Shown one piece after another: positions 604 through 6,953 of a stretch of DNA of 56,137 bases. The DNA is taken from the NCBI GenBank assembly GCA_021846505.1, contig JAJZWV010000017.1, forward strand, positions 1-56,137. Direction: 5' to 3'. The position numbers were made by a program, and so were the translations under genes. Within the stretch, counting starts at the first letter, position 1. Each line of letters starts with the position of its first letter. Origin of the DNA: Bacillota bacterium. GTDB taxonomy: Bacteria > Bacillota > Sulfobacillia > Sulfobacillales > JAIMBI01. The notes under the pieces are model-generated. The model saw only the letters and a list, made by a program, of their open reading frames with translations, had not been told where the DNA came from and made no database searches.

Positions 604-2682
604 ATGGCGAAATCGGCAGGTGAGCCCGCGTGGCTCCACGCGCTGATGCTGGACTGGGCGGATCCGCTCACCCACTTTGCTTACGACCACTTAGGCAAGC
701 TTGCCGAGTCCCAGGCGCTGGCGCGCCAAGTGTTCCTGCGGCTCCTGCATCCCGCACCCGAGGAGGCGCCCCACGCCGGGGACCTGTTTGAGCGCGCCGA
801 CCTCCTGATGCGCCGGCGCGGGCGGGCCGAGGAGAAGGGGGGTGGGGGCTGGCTGGCTGCCGTCCGCCGGCTGTCGCCGGAAGACCGGCGGTGGTGCTGG
901 CTCGCCGCCTATGGCCCCTGGTCGTTTGAGGTGTTGGCGGCCAGCGCGGGGATGCCGCCGGACACGGTGTCGCTGGCGCTGGAGCGAGCCTGGTGGGGCT
1001 TAAATTCCACCGGCGCTCGGCCGCGATCTGAAGCGGAGTGGCGTCAGTGGCTGGCCGAGGTGGGCCCGCCGGCGCCGCCCGCCCACCTGACGTTTGACTG
1101 GGCGGCGTGGAACCCGGGGGCGCGGCCGCCGCGGATGCCCAGCCGGATCCGCCCGCGGCACGCCGCCGTGATGGCCGCCGTGCTGGTGCTGCTGGGAGTA
1201 GGAGCGGATGCCGTGCGCTCGGCAGCGCTGGCGTCGGTGCCGCCTCTGCCGTTTCCGGCGGGCACCGCAGTGGCGCTGCGCCTCCTGGTGGACCAAGGGC
1301 CGCCGGTTGACCGGGCATCCTTTGGGGCGGGCGCCGGGGGGACACTGCCGTCCGTCCGCGTGGCGCCGGGGCTGGCCCGCTACCAGGTCACCAGCGACCG
1401 AGCGTCTGACTTGTCGGCGGCGTATCAAATTGGGAGACTGCAGGTGGCGTGGGCCAAAAGCCCACACGGGATGGCGCTGGTGATCCGAAATCCCGCCGGG
1501 CCCGCGCCCACCGTGTACAACTTGGCCAGCCGTGGGCAGCGCGTTAAAGGCTTGGAGGAAGCTCACGGCTTCGTGGTGTACCAGTTCCCCGGCCTGGCGG
1601 GGGCCGTGAGGGTGGAGCCGGCGGGCCGTCCATCGCAGGGCACGACACTTGCGTGGGCGCCTCTGGCCGGGCCCCACCGCTGGATTCACGTGGACAGCGG
1701 GGTGTGGAGTGCCGCGGCCGGCCAGCCGGTCCCGCGGGGCCCCGGGGGCACGTGGGTGTACGAGGCACCGCCCGTGGCGGGCGGGCGGGTGGTGGGAGTT
1801 TTGGCCAGCGGCGTGCTGTGGGAGCGCCAGGGGCGGTGGTGGCTCCTGCCAGTGCGCGGCCCCGCCGTGCCACTGGTGCACGTGCTGGCCGGCAGCCCTG
1901 GCAGTCTTCAAGCCGCCACGCCGCTCGCGCCCTATCCCGGGGCGGCCGAAAGCGTGTTGGTCAGTGTCGTGGATCCCGCCCAGACTCGGGGATCCTCGAC
2001 CCTCTGGTGGAACCTCGCTCGGGGTCAGTGGGAACACATCACGCTCAATGCCCCGGGGTTCCTCACACAGGCGCTGCGCGCGGGCTGGGTGCTGCCCGGG
2101 CCCACCCCCCAGCTGGTCACCTACGGGTCGCCGCCGGGCCTGCTGACCATGGGCCAGGACATGTGGGTCCTGGCGGCGTGGGATCACCAGGTGTTTGGCT
2201 TAAAGCTCTCAGCCGGCGGCGCCGTCGCGGGAGCCGGGACCTATGGCTGGCGGCATCGGACGTACGCGCCTGCGGCGCTTCGGCAAAGCGGCGAGGCGGA
2301 GGCGTTTCCGGTCTGGGGCCCCACGTACCTCTCGCGGGCGCCTTTGGGGGGCGCACCGCGCCAGGTTTTCTCCAACGGCTCGATCAAAGGGCCGGCCACC
2401 ATCTATCTCACCGCGGCCAATGGCCAGCATCGGGCCACGGTTCAGCTGGGGCGGACCGACACCTTACTGTGGGAGCGGCGCTGGCTGTTGGTCGAAAGCG
2501 CGGCCGGGGGCCACCGCACGATGAAGGCGGCCTGGCCAAACGCCCAGGGGCGGCTGACCTGGCATGTGCTGGCCACCGGGTCGGCATCCAACCTGCAGTC
2601 CGGCCCCGGCTTTGTGTCGTGGCAGGAGAACGGCCACACTTACATTTGGATGCCGCCGTTTGAGGCGCTCAGCGCACCGTGA
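604..2682 (+). CDS. Sigma-70-like N-terminal region fused to a membrane helix and a large external domain, copy 1
   Basis: Unrecognised 692-residue protein. Residues about 10-50 (WLHALMLDWAD through ARQVFLRLL) resemble region 2 of ECF sigma factors, and residues about 88-130 (RRLSPEDRRWCWLAAYGPW, then FEVLAASAGMPPDTVSLALE) resemble the region 4 helix-turn-helix. A single hydrophobic helix lies at about 187-210. The remaining 480 residues are rich in Trp, Gly and Pro with recurring strand-like units, suggesting a beta-propeller-like domain outside the membrane. A conserved linker with W..WL and FDWAAWNP precedes the helix. The next gene is a paralogue whose GTG overlaps this stop by four bases. 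The sigma resemblance is by eye; key DNA-contact residues cannot be confirmed. A fused anti-sigma-like sensor is an alternative. Existence of the gene is near certain, its role unknown. Confidence 0.75.
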   Translation: MAKSAGEPAWLHALMLDWADPLTHFAYDHLGKLAESQALARQVFLRLLHPAPEEAPHAGDLFERADLLMRRRGRAEEKGGGGWLAAVRRLSPEDRRWCWLAAYGPWSFEVLAASAGMPPDTVSLALERAWWGLNSTGARPRSEAEWRQWLAEVGPPAPPAHLTFDWAAWNPGARPPRMPSRIRPRHAAVMAAVLVLLGVGADAVRSAALASVPPLPFPAGTAVALRLLVDQGPPVDRASFGAGAGGTLPSVRVAPGLARYQVTSDRASDLSAAYQIGRLQVAWAKSPHGMALVIRNPAGPAPTVYNLASRGQRVKGLEEAHGFVVYQFPGLAGAVRVEPAGRPSQGTTLAWAPLAGPHRWIHVDSGVWSAAAGQPVPRGPGGTWVYEAPPVAGGRVVGVLASGVLWERQGRWWLLPVRGPAVPLVHVLAGSPGSLQAATPLAPYPGAAESVLVSVVDPAQTRGSSTLWWNLARGQWEHITLNAPGFLTQALRAGWVLPGPTPQLVTYGSPPGLLTMGQDMWVLAAWDHQVFGLKLSAGGAVAGAGTYGWRHRTYAPAALRQSGEAEAFPVWGPTYLSRAPLGGAPRQVFSNGSIKGPATIYLTAANGQHRATVQLGRTDTLLWERRWLLVESAAGGHRTMKAAWPNAQGRLTWHVLATGSASNLQSGPGFVSWQENGHTYIWMPPFEALSAP

Positions 2683-4700
2683 GGCGGCCAGTGCCCCGCT
2701 GGCTCCATCCCCTGATGATGGAGTGGGCGGACTCTGTACTGCACTTGGCTTGGATCGCCACGCGGAAGCCCGACCAGGCCCAGCACCTCACGCGGCAGGT
2801 GTTCCTGGCGGCGCGGCGCAGGGCCGGCGAGGAGATGCCGCGGCCCGCGGATCTGTTGGAGCGGGCCGCGCACCTCGGGCGGCGCTGGGGTGAAGAAGCT
2901 CCCGCGCCGTGGGAGTCCGCCCTCCGGCGCCTCCCACGCGCTGAGCGCCGCTGCTGCTGGCTCGCGCTGTATGGCCCCTGGTCCTTTGGTGATTTAGCGG
3001 CGTCGGAGCAAGTGCCCGCCCCCTATCTCACGCAGTCGCTGGAGCACTTGGCCCGGGCCATGGCGGTGCCCGAGCCGGACCCGTCCGAGGGCGGCGACAG
3101 CGAGTCCCGCTGGCGGCATTGGCTAAAAGAGCATGGGCCGGATCCGCTGCCGCCAAGCATGAGCTTTCGCTGGCGGGAGTGGGATCCTACGGGGCGCGTG
3201 GACCACTCGATTCGGATCCGGCCGCGGCAGGGGCTGGCGGTGGCGCTGGTGGTGCTGTCCTTGGGGGGGTTCGCCTGGCACGTGAGTGCCGCCGCCGCCG
3301 CCCGCCGCGCGGCCATTCCCATCCTGCCGTTCACGCCCCAGCCCTCCACCGCCGCGCTGCATTTGGTGGTGGCGCACGGGGTGGCGGTTGCGGCGCACAA
3401 TTTTGGCAGCCCCGTGTCCGCGGCCGTGCCGGCGCGGCGGCTGTCAGCCGCCTACAATCGCTACGCGATTGCCACGGCAAGTCCGGGCCACCCGTCGCGC
3501 GCGTATCAGGTGGGGGCGCTGCAGGTGGCGTGGGCGCGCACCCGCGCGGGGGTGGGCCTCATTGTGGCGGACCCCAGCAATGGCCCCGTGGCGGTGGTGA
3601 ACCTGGCCAGCGGGGGGCGGCCCGTGCCGGGCACGGCCGAGCCCGGCTACCGGGTTTATGGCTTTGCCGGGCTGGCCGGCGCCGTGCGCGTGGTGGAAGC
3701 GGGGCACACCACGGTGTTGGCGTGGGCCGACGGCTTGTATGCGGGGGTGCAGAGCGGCGCCTGGACCCTGGCGGCAGGGCAGCCGGCACCGCGCGGGCCG
3801 GACGGGAGCCACGTGTATGCGGCGCCGCCGGGCTCCGGCACGGCGCTGGGCGTGATTGCCGATGGCGTCCTGTGGAAGGGGCGCGGGACTCAGTGGTGGC
3901 TTCTGCCGACACGCGGCCCCACCCTCCCCCTGATTGCCGAAGGGACATCCCGGGCCGCTCAGGAGATTGCCTCCCTGACGGCGCCCTACCCGGCCGCGTC
4001 CAACCAAGTCCTGGCGTACGAAAATTGGCTGGCCAACGGCCGCGGACCGGATGAAGTGTGGTGGAACCTAGCCAGCGAGCGCCTGGGGGCGATGCCGGGC
4101 AATGTTTTCCCCGAACAGCCGGTGGCGCAGGGGTGGGTCAATGATGGCCAGTCGGGCTCGCTCATGACCTATTCATCGCCGCCAGCCACCCTGGCACTGC
4201 CGCGGGCCCCCGTCACGTGGGCGGCGTGGGGCCACTCGGTCTTTGCGCAGGCAGCAGAAGGCCCCGGCGCCATCTATGGCACCTACAATTGGGCGCGCCG
4301 CACCTGGAAGCCCGCGACCGTGCAGCCTCATGCTCTTTGGGGCGCCGTGGCGCTGCCGCAGTGGGGTCCCACGTACGTCCAGCCAGGAGGGCGGGCCGGA
4401 GAGGATTCCGGCTTGCCCCTCCCCGGACCCATGACCGTGGCGCTCACGCCAGCCAGCGGCCGGCCGCCCAGCACGTTTCGGGTGGCGGCCGGGCACACAC
4501 TGTTTGTTGCGGCGCGCTGGCTGGTGGCGGCGTCGGTGCGCCACCCGAATCGGGTGGAGGTGGGCTGGCCCAATGGGGCCGGGCAGCTTGAGTGGCACCG
4601 GATTGATGCCCCGTCACCCGTGCATGCCGCGCTGGACTTTCTGTACTGGACGTCGCCGCGCCACACCTATGTGTGGGTGCCGCCCTTTCAGCCTTACTGA
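2679..4700 (+). CDS. Sigma-70-like N-terminal region fused to a membrane helix and a large external domain, copy 2
   Basis: Unrecognised 673-residue paralogue of the preceding gene with the same layout: region-2-like helices at about 8-46 (WLHPLMMEWAD through TRQVFLAARR), a region-4-like helix-turn-helix at about 84-127 (RLPRAERRCCWLALYGPWSF), a linker containing W..WL and FRWREWDP, one membrane helix at about 185-207, then a Trp/Gly-rich external domain. The best matching blocks between the copies are AYQ.G.LQVAWA, VYNLAS/VVNLAS, GVWSAAAGQPVPRGP/GAWTLAAGQPAPRGP and a closing HTYIWMPPF/HTYVWVPPF. The GTG start sits inside the GTGA shared with the upstream stop, so the two are translationally coupled and probably equimolar. 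No sigma operon partner or anti-sigma gene is adjacent. Confidence 0.75.
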   Translation: MRRPVPRWLHPLMMEWADSVLHLAWIATRKPDQAQHLTRQVFLAARRRAGEEMPRPADLLERAAHLGRRWGEEAPAPWESALRRLPRAERRCCWLALYGPWSFGDLAASEQVPAPYLTQSLEHLARAMAVPEPDPSEGGDSESRWRHWLKEHGPDPLPPSMSFRWREWDPTGRVDHSIRIRPRQGLAVALVVLSLGGFAWHVSAAAAARRAAIPILPFTPQPSTAALHLVVAHGVAVAAHNFGSPVSAAVPARRLSAAYNRYAIATASPGHPSRAYQVGALQVAWARTRAGVGLIVADPSNGPVAVVNLASGGRPVPGTAEPGYRVYGFAGLAGAVRVVEAGHTTVLAWADGLYAGVQSGAWTLAAGQPAPRGPDGSHVYAAPPGSGTALGVIADGVLWKGRGTQWWLLPTRGPTLPLIAEGTSRAAQEIASLTAPYPAASNQVLAYENWLANGRGPDEVWWNLASERLGAMPGNVFPEQPVAQGWVNDGQSGSLMTYSSPPATLALPRAPVTWAAWGHSVFAQAAEGPGAIYGTYNWARRTWKPATVQPHALWGAVALPQWGPTYVQPGGRAGEDSGLPLPGPMTVALTPASGRPPSTFRVAAGHTLFVAARWLVAASVRHPNRVEVGWPNGAGQLEWHRIDAPSPVHAALDFLYWTSPRHTYVWVPPFQPY

Positions 4701-4880: not shown

Positions 4881-6953
4881 ATGCCCAACATAGCGTATCC
4901 GCATACCCCCGTGCGCCCTGTCACCGAGGTGCTGCACGGGGTGAGCATCACCGATCCCTACCGCTGGCTCGAAGACGGCGCCTCCCCCGAGACGGCCGAG
5001 TGGGTGGCGCAGCAAAACGCGCTCACGCGCGGCGCGCTGGACGGGCTCGACGTGCGCGCCCGCATCAAGGCGCGCTGGCTGGAGCTGGCCCGCGCCGGCA
5101 GCGTCGGCAGCCCCCGGGTGGTGGGGCGCTATCTCTACTACTTGGAGCGGTCGCCGGACGAGCGCCAGCCGCGCCTCATGCGGCGGTGCGGCGGCACAGA
5201 GGCACCCGAGCTGGTGCTGGACCCGAACAGGGGCCATGCGGCCGGGCTGGTGGCGCTGGACTGGTACCAGCCCACGCGTGGTGGGACGCGCGTTGCCTAT
5301 GGCCTGTCGGCCAACGGCGACGAGTGGAGCACACTCGGGGTGGTGGACCTGGAGCGGGGCGAAGTGCTGCCGGTGGCCATTCCGCGGTGCCGCATGAGTT
5401 CGGTGGCGTGGCTCCCGGATGGGCAAAGCTTCTTCTACACCCGCTACCCGCTGGTGGGCACGGTGCCGGAGGCGGAGCTTCCTTACCATAAGCGCGTGTA
5501 CTGGCACAATCTTGCGAGCCCCGGCCAGGACTACCGGCAGGACCCCGAGGTGTTTGGCGCCGGTCGCGACCGACGCGTGAGCCCCCACGTGGACATCACC
5601 GCTGACGGCCGCTACCTGGTGGCCACCCTTATGATGGGCACCCAGCAAACCGAAGTGTGGTGGGCGGACTTGCAGGAGAGCTTTCCCACCCCGCCGTTTC
5701 GGGCGCTGTTTGCGAACCTGCTGGCGCGGTTCCATGTGAAGCTGGTGGGGCATGAGCTCGACGTCTGGACCAACTGGCAAGCCCCCAATGGGCGCCTCTT
5801 GGGTGTGAACTTGGACCACCCGCCGCTGGAGCCGGGGGCTGCCACCGAGCTGGTGGGGGAGCATCCCCACCGCGCGCTGCAGCAGGCCGAGCGGCTGGGC
5901 CCCGGGTGGCTTTTGGATTACTTGGAAGATGCCAGCTCGCGGCTGGTGCATCGCGAAGTGAGCGGCGAGGAGCGCGAGCTGGCCCTGCCGGAGCTGGGCA
6001 CCATTTCTGGCATGGGCGTGGAGCCTGGCACTGGCGCCGCGTTTGTCGGCTATGAGTCGTTTGCGATTCGGCCGGGCATCTGGCGCGTGCAGCGGGAGGA
6101 GGGGCGCATTGCGCCGCATATGACCGTCTCTGAAGGTGGCGCGGCCCCTCCCATTCGCGTCACGCAGGAGTGGACTCAGTCGGCGGATGGCACGGCTGTC
6201 CCGCTGTTTCTGGTGCAGCGGGCTGATGCGCCCGCGTCGCCCCGCCCCGCCGTCCTGTCCGGCTACGGCGGGTTCAACCTGTCGCGGACGCCCGTGTACA
6301 CCAATGACCAGCGCCTGTGGGTCGAAATGGGCGGCTTGTTCGCCGTGGCGACGCTCCGAGGCGGCGGCGAGTATGGCGCCGCCTGGCACCGAGCCGGCAT
6401 GCTGGAGCAAAAGCAGCACGTGTTTGACGACTACATTGCCGCGGCGGAGCACCTGGTGGCCGCAGGCCACACCGACCGGCGGCACCTGGCGCTGTGGGGG
6501 CGGAGCAACGGGGGTTTGCTGGTGGGCGCCGCCCTGACCCAGCGGCCCGATTTGTGCCGGGCGGTCGTGTGTGGCGTCCCGCTGCTGGACATGGTGCGGT
6601 ACCACCGGTTCCTCATCGCCGACCTGTGGACGGCTGAGTATGGCTCGGCGGATGACCCGGCGCAGTTCAGCTACATCTACGCGTATTCGCCCTACCACCA
6701 CGTGGAGCCGGGCACCGCCTATCCTGCGGTGCTGCTTTACGCGGCCCACGAGGACAGCCGGGTCGACCCGCTGCATGCGCGGAAAATGGCCGCGCTCCTG
6801 CAGAGCGCCAGCACGTCTGATCGGCCCATCCTGCTGCGCATTGAGTTTCAGGCCGGGCACGGCGTGGGCAAGCCTATCCCCAAGCAGGCCGATGAGTACG
6901 CCGACATCCTCGCGTTTCTGGCCGACCAGCTGGAGCTTGACGCACCGCACTGA
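4881..6953 (+). CDS. Prolyl oligopeptidase (S9A family)
   Basis: A 690-residue cytoplasmic serine peptidase expected to cleave short peptides after proline. The N-terminus (YPHTPVRPVTEVLHG, then DPYRWLED) is the family hallmark. A seven-bladed propeller region spans about 70-410 and the alpha/beta-hydrolase domain follows. The nucleophile lies in GRSNGG near residue 541, the acid in HEDSRVD near 628 and the histidine in GHGVG near 659, so all three catalytic positions are present. Length matches the family. The ATG follows a strong AGGAGG. There is no signal peptide. It stands alone and converges with odhB over a hairpin. Peptide recycling is the likely job. Confidence 0.93.
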   Translation: MPNIAYPHTPVRPVTEVLHGVSITDPYRWLEDGASPETAEWVAQQNALTRGALDGLDVRARIKARWLELARAGSVGSPRVVGRYLYYLERSPDERQPRLMRRCGGTEAPELVLDPNRGHAAGLVALDWYQPTRGGTRVAYGLSANGDEWSTLGVVDLERGEVLPVAIPRCRMSSVAWLPDGQSFFYTRYPLVGTVPEAELPYHKRVYWHNLASPGQDYRQDPEVFGAGRDRRVSPHVDITADGRYLVATLMMGTQQTEVWWADLQESFPTPPFRALFANLLARFHVKLVGHELDVWTNWQAPNGRLLGVNLDHPPLEPGAATELVGEHPHRALQQAERLGPGWLLDYLEDASSRLVHREVSGEERELALPELGTISGMGVEPGTGAAFVGYESFAIRPGIWRVQREEGRIAPHMTVSEGGAAPPIRVTQEWTQSADGTAVPLFLVQRADAPASPRPAVLSGYGGFNLSRTPVYTNDQRLWVEMGGLFAVATLRGGGEYGAAWHRAGMLEQKQHVFDDYIAAAEHLVAAGHTDRRHLALWGRSNGGLLVGAALTQRPDLCRAVVCGVPLLDMVRYHRFLIADLWTAEYGSADDPAQFSYIYAYSPYHHVEPGTAYPAVLLYAAHEDSRVDPLHARKMAALLQSASTSDRPILLRIEFQAGHGVGKPIPKQADEYADILAFLADQLELDAPH

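Follow-up and report, generated by a model that had tools for sequence, protein, structure and literature searches.

Apparent fusion of an ECF sigma factor with a membrane anti-sigma-like protein in a Sulfobacillales bacterium, and its possible role as a sigma mimic

What might a protein do that begins like a sigma factor, crosses the membrane once and carries a large domain on the outside? The question is raised by two overlapping genes in a 56,137-nucleotide stretch of DNA from a bacterium of the Sulfobacillales (NCBI GenBank assembly GCA_021846505.1, contig JAJZWV010000017.1, positions 1 to 56,137), referred to here as the window. Copy 1 (F1; positions 604 to 2682, + strand) encodes a protein of 692 amino acids from an ATG start, and copy 2 (F2; positions 2679 to 4700, + strand) encodes a protein of 673 amino acids with the same architecture from a GTG start. 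The two open reading frames are coupled by a GTGA overlap (positions 2679 to 2682, + strand) in which the start of F2 lies over the stop of F1, as an earlier note on this DNA had reported; the fixed stoichiometry that the same note read from the coupling does not follow, as an overlap by itself does not fix stoichiometry. F1 and F2 are 40% identical over their length, and each runs from a sigma-like domain through a short cytoplasmic segment and one membrane helix into approximately 480 external residues. Hydropathy analysis revealed a single clear hydrophobic segment per protein, at residues 186-204 in both (F1, positions 1159 to 1215, Kyte-Doolittle hydropathy 1.98; F2, positions 3234 to 3290, hydropathy 1.87; + strand), confirming the membrane helix that had been proposed for both copies. 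A basic stretch precedes the membrane helix (RIRPRH just before that of F1), which fits a cytoplasmic N-terminus.

The F1-F2 tandem was also found in three other genomes of the same genus (G001, G002 and G003; the genome of the window is G000). A prolyl oligopeptidase gene (Peptidase_S9 by Pfam; positions 4881 to 6953, + strand) is a conserved downstream neighbour, and in G001 it likewise comes immediately after copy 2 (L013). No canonical ECF sigma gene adjoins the tandem in G001-G003, and in G000 the contig starts 603 bases upstream of it. Comparison of 350 bp upstream of F1 in the four genomes gave no convincing shared promoter.

The ancestry of the N-termini was examined with profiles in both directions. 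A canonical sigma profile, built from 22 stand-alone ECF sigma factors of the taxonomic order and its neighbours with no fusion protein included, matched F1 at E 2.1e-11 and F2 at E 6.6e-9. In F1 the match covered residues 9-75, within a pseudo-sigma2 lobe at residues 8-78 (positions 625 to 837, + strand; AlphaFold helices 9-30, 33-48 and 58-71), and residues 86-129, within a pseudo-sigma4 lobe at residues 82-138 (positions 847 to 1017, + strand; helices 81-88, 92-103, 108-114 and 121-132). In F2 the pseudo-sigma domain spans residues 6-131 (positions 2694 to 3071, + strand). The reverse profile, built from the fusion N-termini, reached stand-alone ECF sigmas with E-values up to about 1e-15, had zero matches among 3405 shuffled ORFs and, when searched against the PDB, matched ECF sigmas, the best being BldN (6dxo) at 9.5e-5. 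The profiles support the ECF origin of the sigma-70-like regions 2 and 4 that the earlier note had seen by eye in both N-termini; at the level of sequence, the N-terminus of F1 and F2 is derived from an ECF sigma factor. No meaningful match came from Pfam or NCBIfam scans of the window proteins, and F1 and F2 are without a Pfam sigma match, whereas their canonical relatives match the Pfam sigma region 2 and region 4 models at E 1e-12 to 1e-14.

Other genera of the order encode the collinear parts as two adjacent genes, a canonical ECF sigma factor followed by a membrane anti-sigma-like protein. The stand-alone canonical sigmas of these pairs are about 160-190 residues long; the anti-sigma-like protein has L..WL...G.PP.....FDR.RW at its start, ahead of its membrane helix and external domain. 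F1 and F2 align end to end with this two-gene pair. A motif profile built from 15 stand-alone anti-sigma-like proteins matched residues 140-170 of F1 (E 7.7e-4) and the N-terminus of a third copy described below (E 1e-8), and gave a weak match to F2 (E 0.0097). The motif is located at residues 140-172 of F1 (EWRQWLAEVGPP...LTFDWAAW; positions 1021 to 1119, + strand) and, in its weaker form, at residues 142-168 of F2 (positions 3102 to 3182, + strand). The layout of sigma region, helix and external domain given in the earlier note stands, but the anti-sigma-like motif in front of the helix had been overlooked. No Pfam match was found for the short motif, and its putative anti-sigma role rests on position and conservation; GPP...FD..W is possibly the mark of an undescribed class of short anti-sigma domain. 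Judged by these alignments, F1 and F2 almost certainly arose when an ECF sigma gene fused to the membrane anti-sigma-like gene next to it.

The family offers intermediates for such an event: separate genes, gene pairs interrupted by a single in-frame stop, and fused copies. In one genus, three genomes have the canonical ECF sigma in frame with its anti-sigma-like partner, with one TGA between them (L006:59-1522, L007:1165-2625 and L008:1165-2634), so that the loss of one stop would fuse both genes; this suggests pairs one step short of fusion, in which readthrough may be worth a look. A putative lipoprotein is encoded upstream of the sigma gene in two of these loci (L007:241-1161 and L008:185-1129). 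By eye it resembles the external part of the downstream partner, and it is possibly a co-sensor.

Residues were compared in an alignment of 22 canonical sigmas and 10 fusion proteins. Where the canonical sigmas have A-Q-D-x-x-Q-E as their region 2.2 signature, the fusions have A-Q-x-x-x-R-Q/E; both beta'-contact residues, D34 and Q37, are lost in 10/10 fusion proteins, Q37 always to Arg. The -10 tryptophan (W59) is lost in nine of the ten and the -35 arginines R144 and R149 are each lost in all of them, while the recognition helix holds one to three Lys or Arg residues compared with five to seven in canonical sigmas. The sigma2-sigma4 linker is deleted in the fusion proteins, the alignment being less certain at positions 65-73 around the deletion. 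Retained fold or hydrophobic positions include W6, Q33, F40, L60, L109, W118, Y122 and L145. In Mtb SigH, the sigma2-sigma4 linker enters the active-site cleft and its removal abolishes activity, and substitution of W81 by Ala severely impairs transcription; beta' coiled-coil contacts are conserved (PMC6411747). W59 was matched to SigH W81 by its spacing to I85 and N88, a numbering match of our own.

The working sigma-type module envisaged in the earlier note is improbable because nearly all ten copies have lost the linker, which is essential, along with the residues that contact core and promoter; the domain is very probably a pseudo-sigma and not a working sigma factor. Estimates of dN/dS (Nei-Gojobori, orthologues at moderate divergence) were 0.12-0.39 across the pseudo-sigma and 0.09-0.33 across the motif, similar to or below those of the external domain; these values are rough, with some orthologue pairs near synonymous saturation. 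Because dN/dS is low at moderate divergence, the pseudo-sigma and the motif are under purifying selection and are not decaying.

AlphaFold modelled residues 1-181 of F1 with a mean pLDDT of 91.5 and a pTM of 0.87. The motif, at pLDDT 93-97, was predicted to form a helix at residues 143-153 and a turn at 166-168. In the alignment for residues 1-181, the sigma rows were cut before the end of the recognition helix to avoid misalignment on the motif. In the full-length F1 model the N-terminus is helical and confidently predicted, and the beta-rich external part is weak; the alignment behind this model may misplace the recognition helix onto the motif, and the packing described here rests on the model of residues 1-181. 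A fold search with that model returned sigma or PhyR chains in 33 of the top 34 VIA rows, the remaining row coming from an RNA-guided transcription complex; Z was at most 7.1, and the rank order carries more weight than Z. Foldseek E-values for the cytoplasmic model were 5e-3 at best. Superposition over both lobes, at 5.2-5.8 Å across 120-134 residues, was seen for CnrH-CnrY, RpoE-NepR, SigW-RsiW and PhyR only; RNA polymerase-bound sigmas compared with the F1 model gave 27-29 Å, or matched one lobe only. The model fits a pseudo-sigma and anti-sigma motif packed as one closed, inhibitor-bound-like unit, with the caveat that AlphaFold may close any ECF sigma.

The external domain covers residues 215-690 of F1 (positions 1246 to 2673, + strand) and residues 207-673 of F2 (positions 3297 to 4697, + strand), the latter delimited with an external-domain profile built from the fusion family. 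In F1 it is predicted by AlphaFold to be beta-rich, at low to medium confidence. Propellers were the best matches in a fold search (VIA Z at most 8.1, rmsd 5.9, 194 residues aligned) with a model of low confidence. The propeller-like external part proposed previously is plausible on this model, but the fold matches are too middling to serve as evidence of a propeller. Two proteins of the order (L053:1507-2739, - strand; L077:745-2397, + strand) match the external domain but have no sigma part, indicating that this sensor domain is not confined to sigma-related proteins.

Further copies differ in what they keep. Copy 3 (L012, G000) lies behind a canonical ECF gene, the two overlapping by GTGA; from its N-terminus onwards it consists of a canonical motif, a pseudo-sigma, a degraded second motif, a membrane helix and an external domain. 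The locus thereby unites a pseudo-sigma with a good anti-sigma motif and a real sigma, the ingredients of a competition switch. In a fourth copy type (L074 and L017, G002) the pseudo-sigma is kept and the first half of the motif, its first helix, is lost; L074 and L017 are probably one gene, apparently intact, that is split between contigs. The counterpart of this locus in G000 is broken (L079:24-749, contig C85, - strand), with a pseudo-sigma start followed by the end of an external domain in another ORF. Many related ECF sigma genes are present in G000 (L020, L021, L022, L023 and others). Immediately behind several ECF genes of this genome come genes for membrane proteins that carry the short GPP...FD..W motif, and with several such canonical pairs possible trans partners abound. 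A phylum-wide scan of 398 genomes, in which two candidates were scored per genome, found no further fusion, and the family has been seen in one genus only (four genomes).

The reading that we favour, with a probability of roughly one half, is that F1 and F2 are membrane-bound sigma mimics in a partner switch. An ECF sigma gene would have fused with the neighbouring membrane anti-sigma-like gene, and the sigma half would have become a pseudo-sigma, its two-lobed fold kept and its surfaces for RNA polymerase and promoter DNA lost. The pseudo-sigma would occupy the anti-sigma motif of the same chain first of all, or that of the sister copy; this pairing would change on a signal at the external domain, and the change would free or withdraw an anti-sigma motif for a genuine ECF sigma of the cell. 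The basis in sequence consists of the fusion origin, the residue loss, the purifying selection, the expansion of the family and the ECF gene beside copy 3; the partner switching, the external signal and the identity of the controlled sigma are our proposal. The weakness of the motif in F2, the absence of its first helix in copy 4 and the lack of a canonical ECF gene beside F1-F2 in G001-G003 count against a mimic. We put forward only tentatively a transmembrane anti-anti-sigma switch, a one-chain membrane receptor carrying an anti-sigma motif together with a non-functional sigma mimic, which would compete with the true ECF sigma for that motif. In such a switch, clearest in copy 3, an outside signal would free or capture the sigma without proteolysis.

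It is quite improbable that F1 and F2 are instead working sigmas tethered to the membrane and freed by regulated proteolysis on an external signal, as for ECF52 and IutY. Their domain order equals that of ECF52 and IutY (PMC8999054) and the profile matches show the sigma homology to be real, but a working sigma is difficult to reconcile with the loss of core- and promoter-contact residues and the linker in nearly all copies, or with the missing Pfam sigma match set against the strong matches of canonical relatives. The pseudo-sigma could also act in trans, as a decoy that titrates other membrane anti-sigma motifs (those of copy 3 or of stand-alone membrane anti-sigma proteins) and raises the level of free true sigma, its own motif being vestigial. 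The several canonical ECF/short-motif pairs in the genome would suit a decoy, as would the weak F2 motif and copy 4, which has lost half its motif yet keeps its pseudo-sigma. We nevertheless consider a decoy doubtful: the F1 motif is strongly constrained (dN/dS 0.09-0.23) and is predicted to pack with the adjoining pseudo-sigma.

Equally unlikely is a leftover cap or dimerisation domain in a protein that signals by another route, outside sigma regulation. The selective loss of sigma surfaces while fold and motif are constrained in four genomes argues against a leftover, as does copy 3, which keeps a canonical motif and lies in one operon with a true ECF sigma; for it speak the lack of an ECF gene adjoining F1-F2 and the divergence of the motif in F2 and in copy 4 (F4). 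The related genomes TL1-2.bin2, DS3.bin47 and WH5.bin24 are metagenome bins, and a read error could have erased a stop codon between two genes. Such an assembly or annotation artefact has a very small chance of accounting for the fusions, as four independent genomes share the tandem fusion, dN/dS stays below 1 across the junction and the sigma half has diverged alike in all four; assembly error was rejected on the strength of this recurrence.

The favoured reading, a membrane-bound sigma mimic, can be set against known systems. The earlier note knew of no named family with this layout; ECF48, ECF52, ECF53 and IutY/ECF243 have it (PMC8999054). ECF52 (SCO4117), ECF48 and ECF53 are membrane-fused ECF sigmas of Actinobacteria (PMC8999054, PMC5826349) and, like F1 and F2, unite in one chain an ECF sigma, an anti-sigma region, a membrane helix and an external domain. 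Their sigma fits standard models whereas that of F1 and F2 is degenerate, and SCO4117 is active in vivo whereas F1 and F2 lack the features of an intact sigma. Their anti-sigma domain is a zinc finger, whereas the F1/F2 motif is short and without metal ligands, its region having no Cys and no zinc-finger match (by sequence and Pfam). IutY (ECF243) of Pseudomonas putida resembles F1 and F2 in that its ECF sigma continues at the C-terminus into a membrane anti-sigma. Regulated proteolysis has been proposed for ECF52 and shown for IutY (PMC8999054); IutY yields an active sigma after proteolysis, whereas the key sigma residues are gone in F1 and F2.

PhyR carries a sigma-like domain with degenerate promoter and core regions, which titrates the anti-sigma NepR (PMC8103513). 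F1 and F2 share with it a degenerate ECF-like domain, and the PhyR structures 9cb6 and 9by5 were among the best whole-domain fold matches. However, PhyR is soluble, with a receiver domain and a separate NepR, whereas the putative mimic of F1 and F2 is part of a membrane protein and lies beside its own motif. No receiver domain was matched by Pfam in F1 or F2, whose C-terminal part is the membrane helix and beta-rich domain. CnrY-type class II anti-sigma domains, of fewer than 50 residues in two helical segments, are similar to the motif in size and position (PMC7406223), and CnrH in complex with CnrY superposes on the predicted F1 structure over 131 residues. The motif is likened to CnrY by size and position, whereas GPP...FD..W is particular to the group studied here. 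Homologues of both halves are found in the stand-alone ECF/short-motif pairs of the same genome and order (L005, L006, L020, L021 and L081), which differ in comprising two genes with an intact sigma where F1 and F2 are each one gene with a degenerate sigma.

A pseudo-sigma within a membrane anti-sigma protein looks to be a new combination, undescribed in the open-licence literature. If the mimic reading is correct, sigma mimicry, as known from PhyR in Alphaproteobacteria, would have evolved a second time, in another phylum and inside a membrane receptor, and the mimic would have arisen when a sigma was fused to its inhibitor. ECF sigmas could then also be controlled without proteolysis, and ECF-like membrane proteins encountered in genome surveys would not necessarily be sigma factors.
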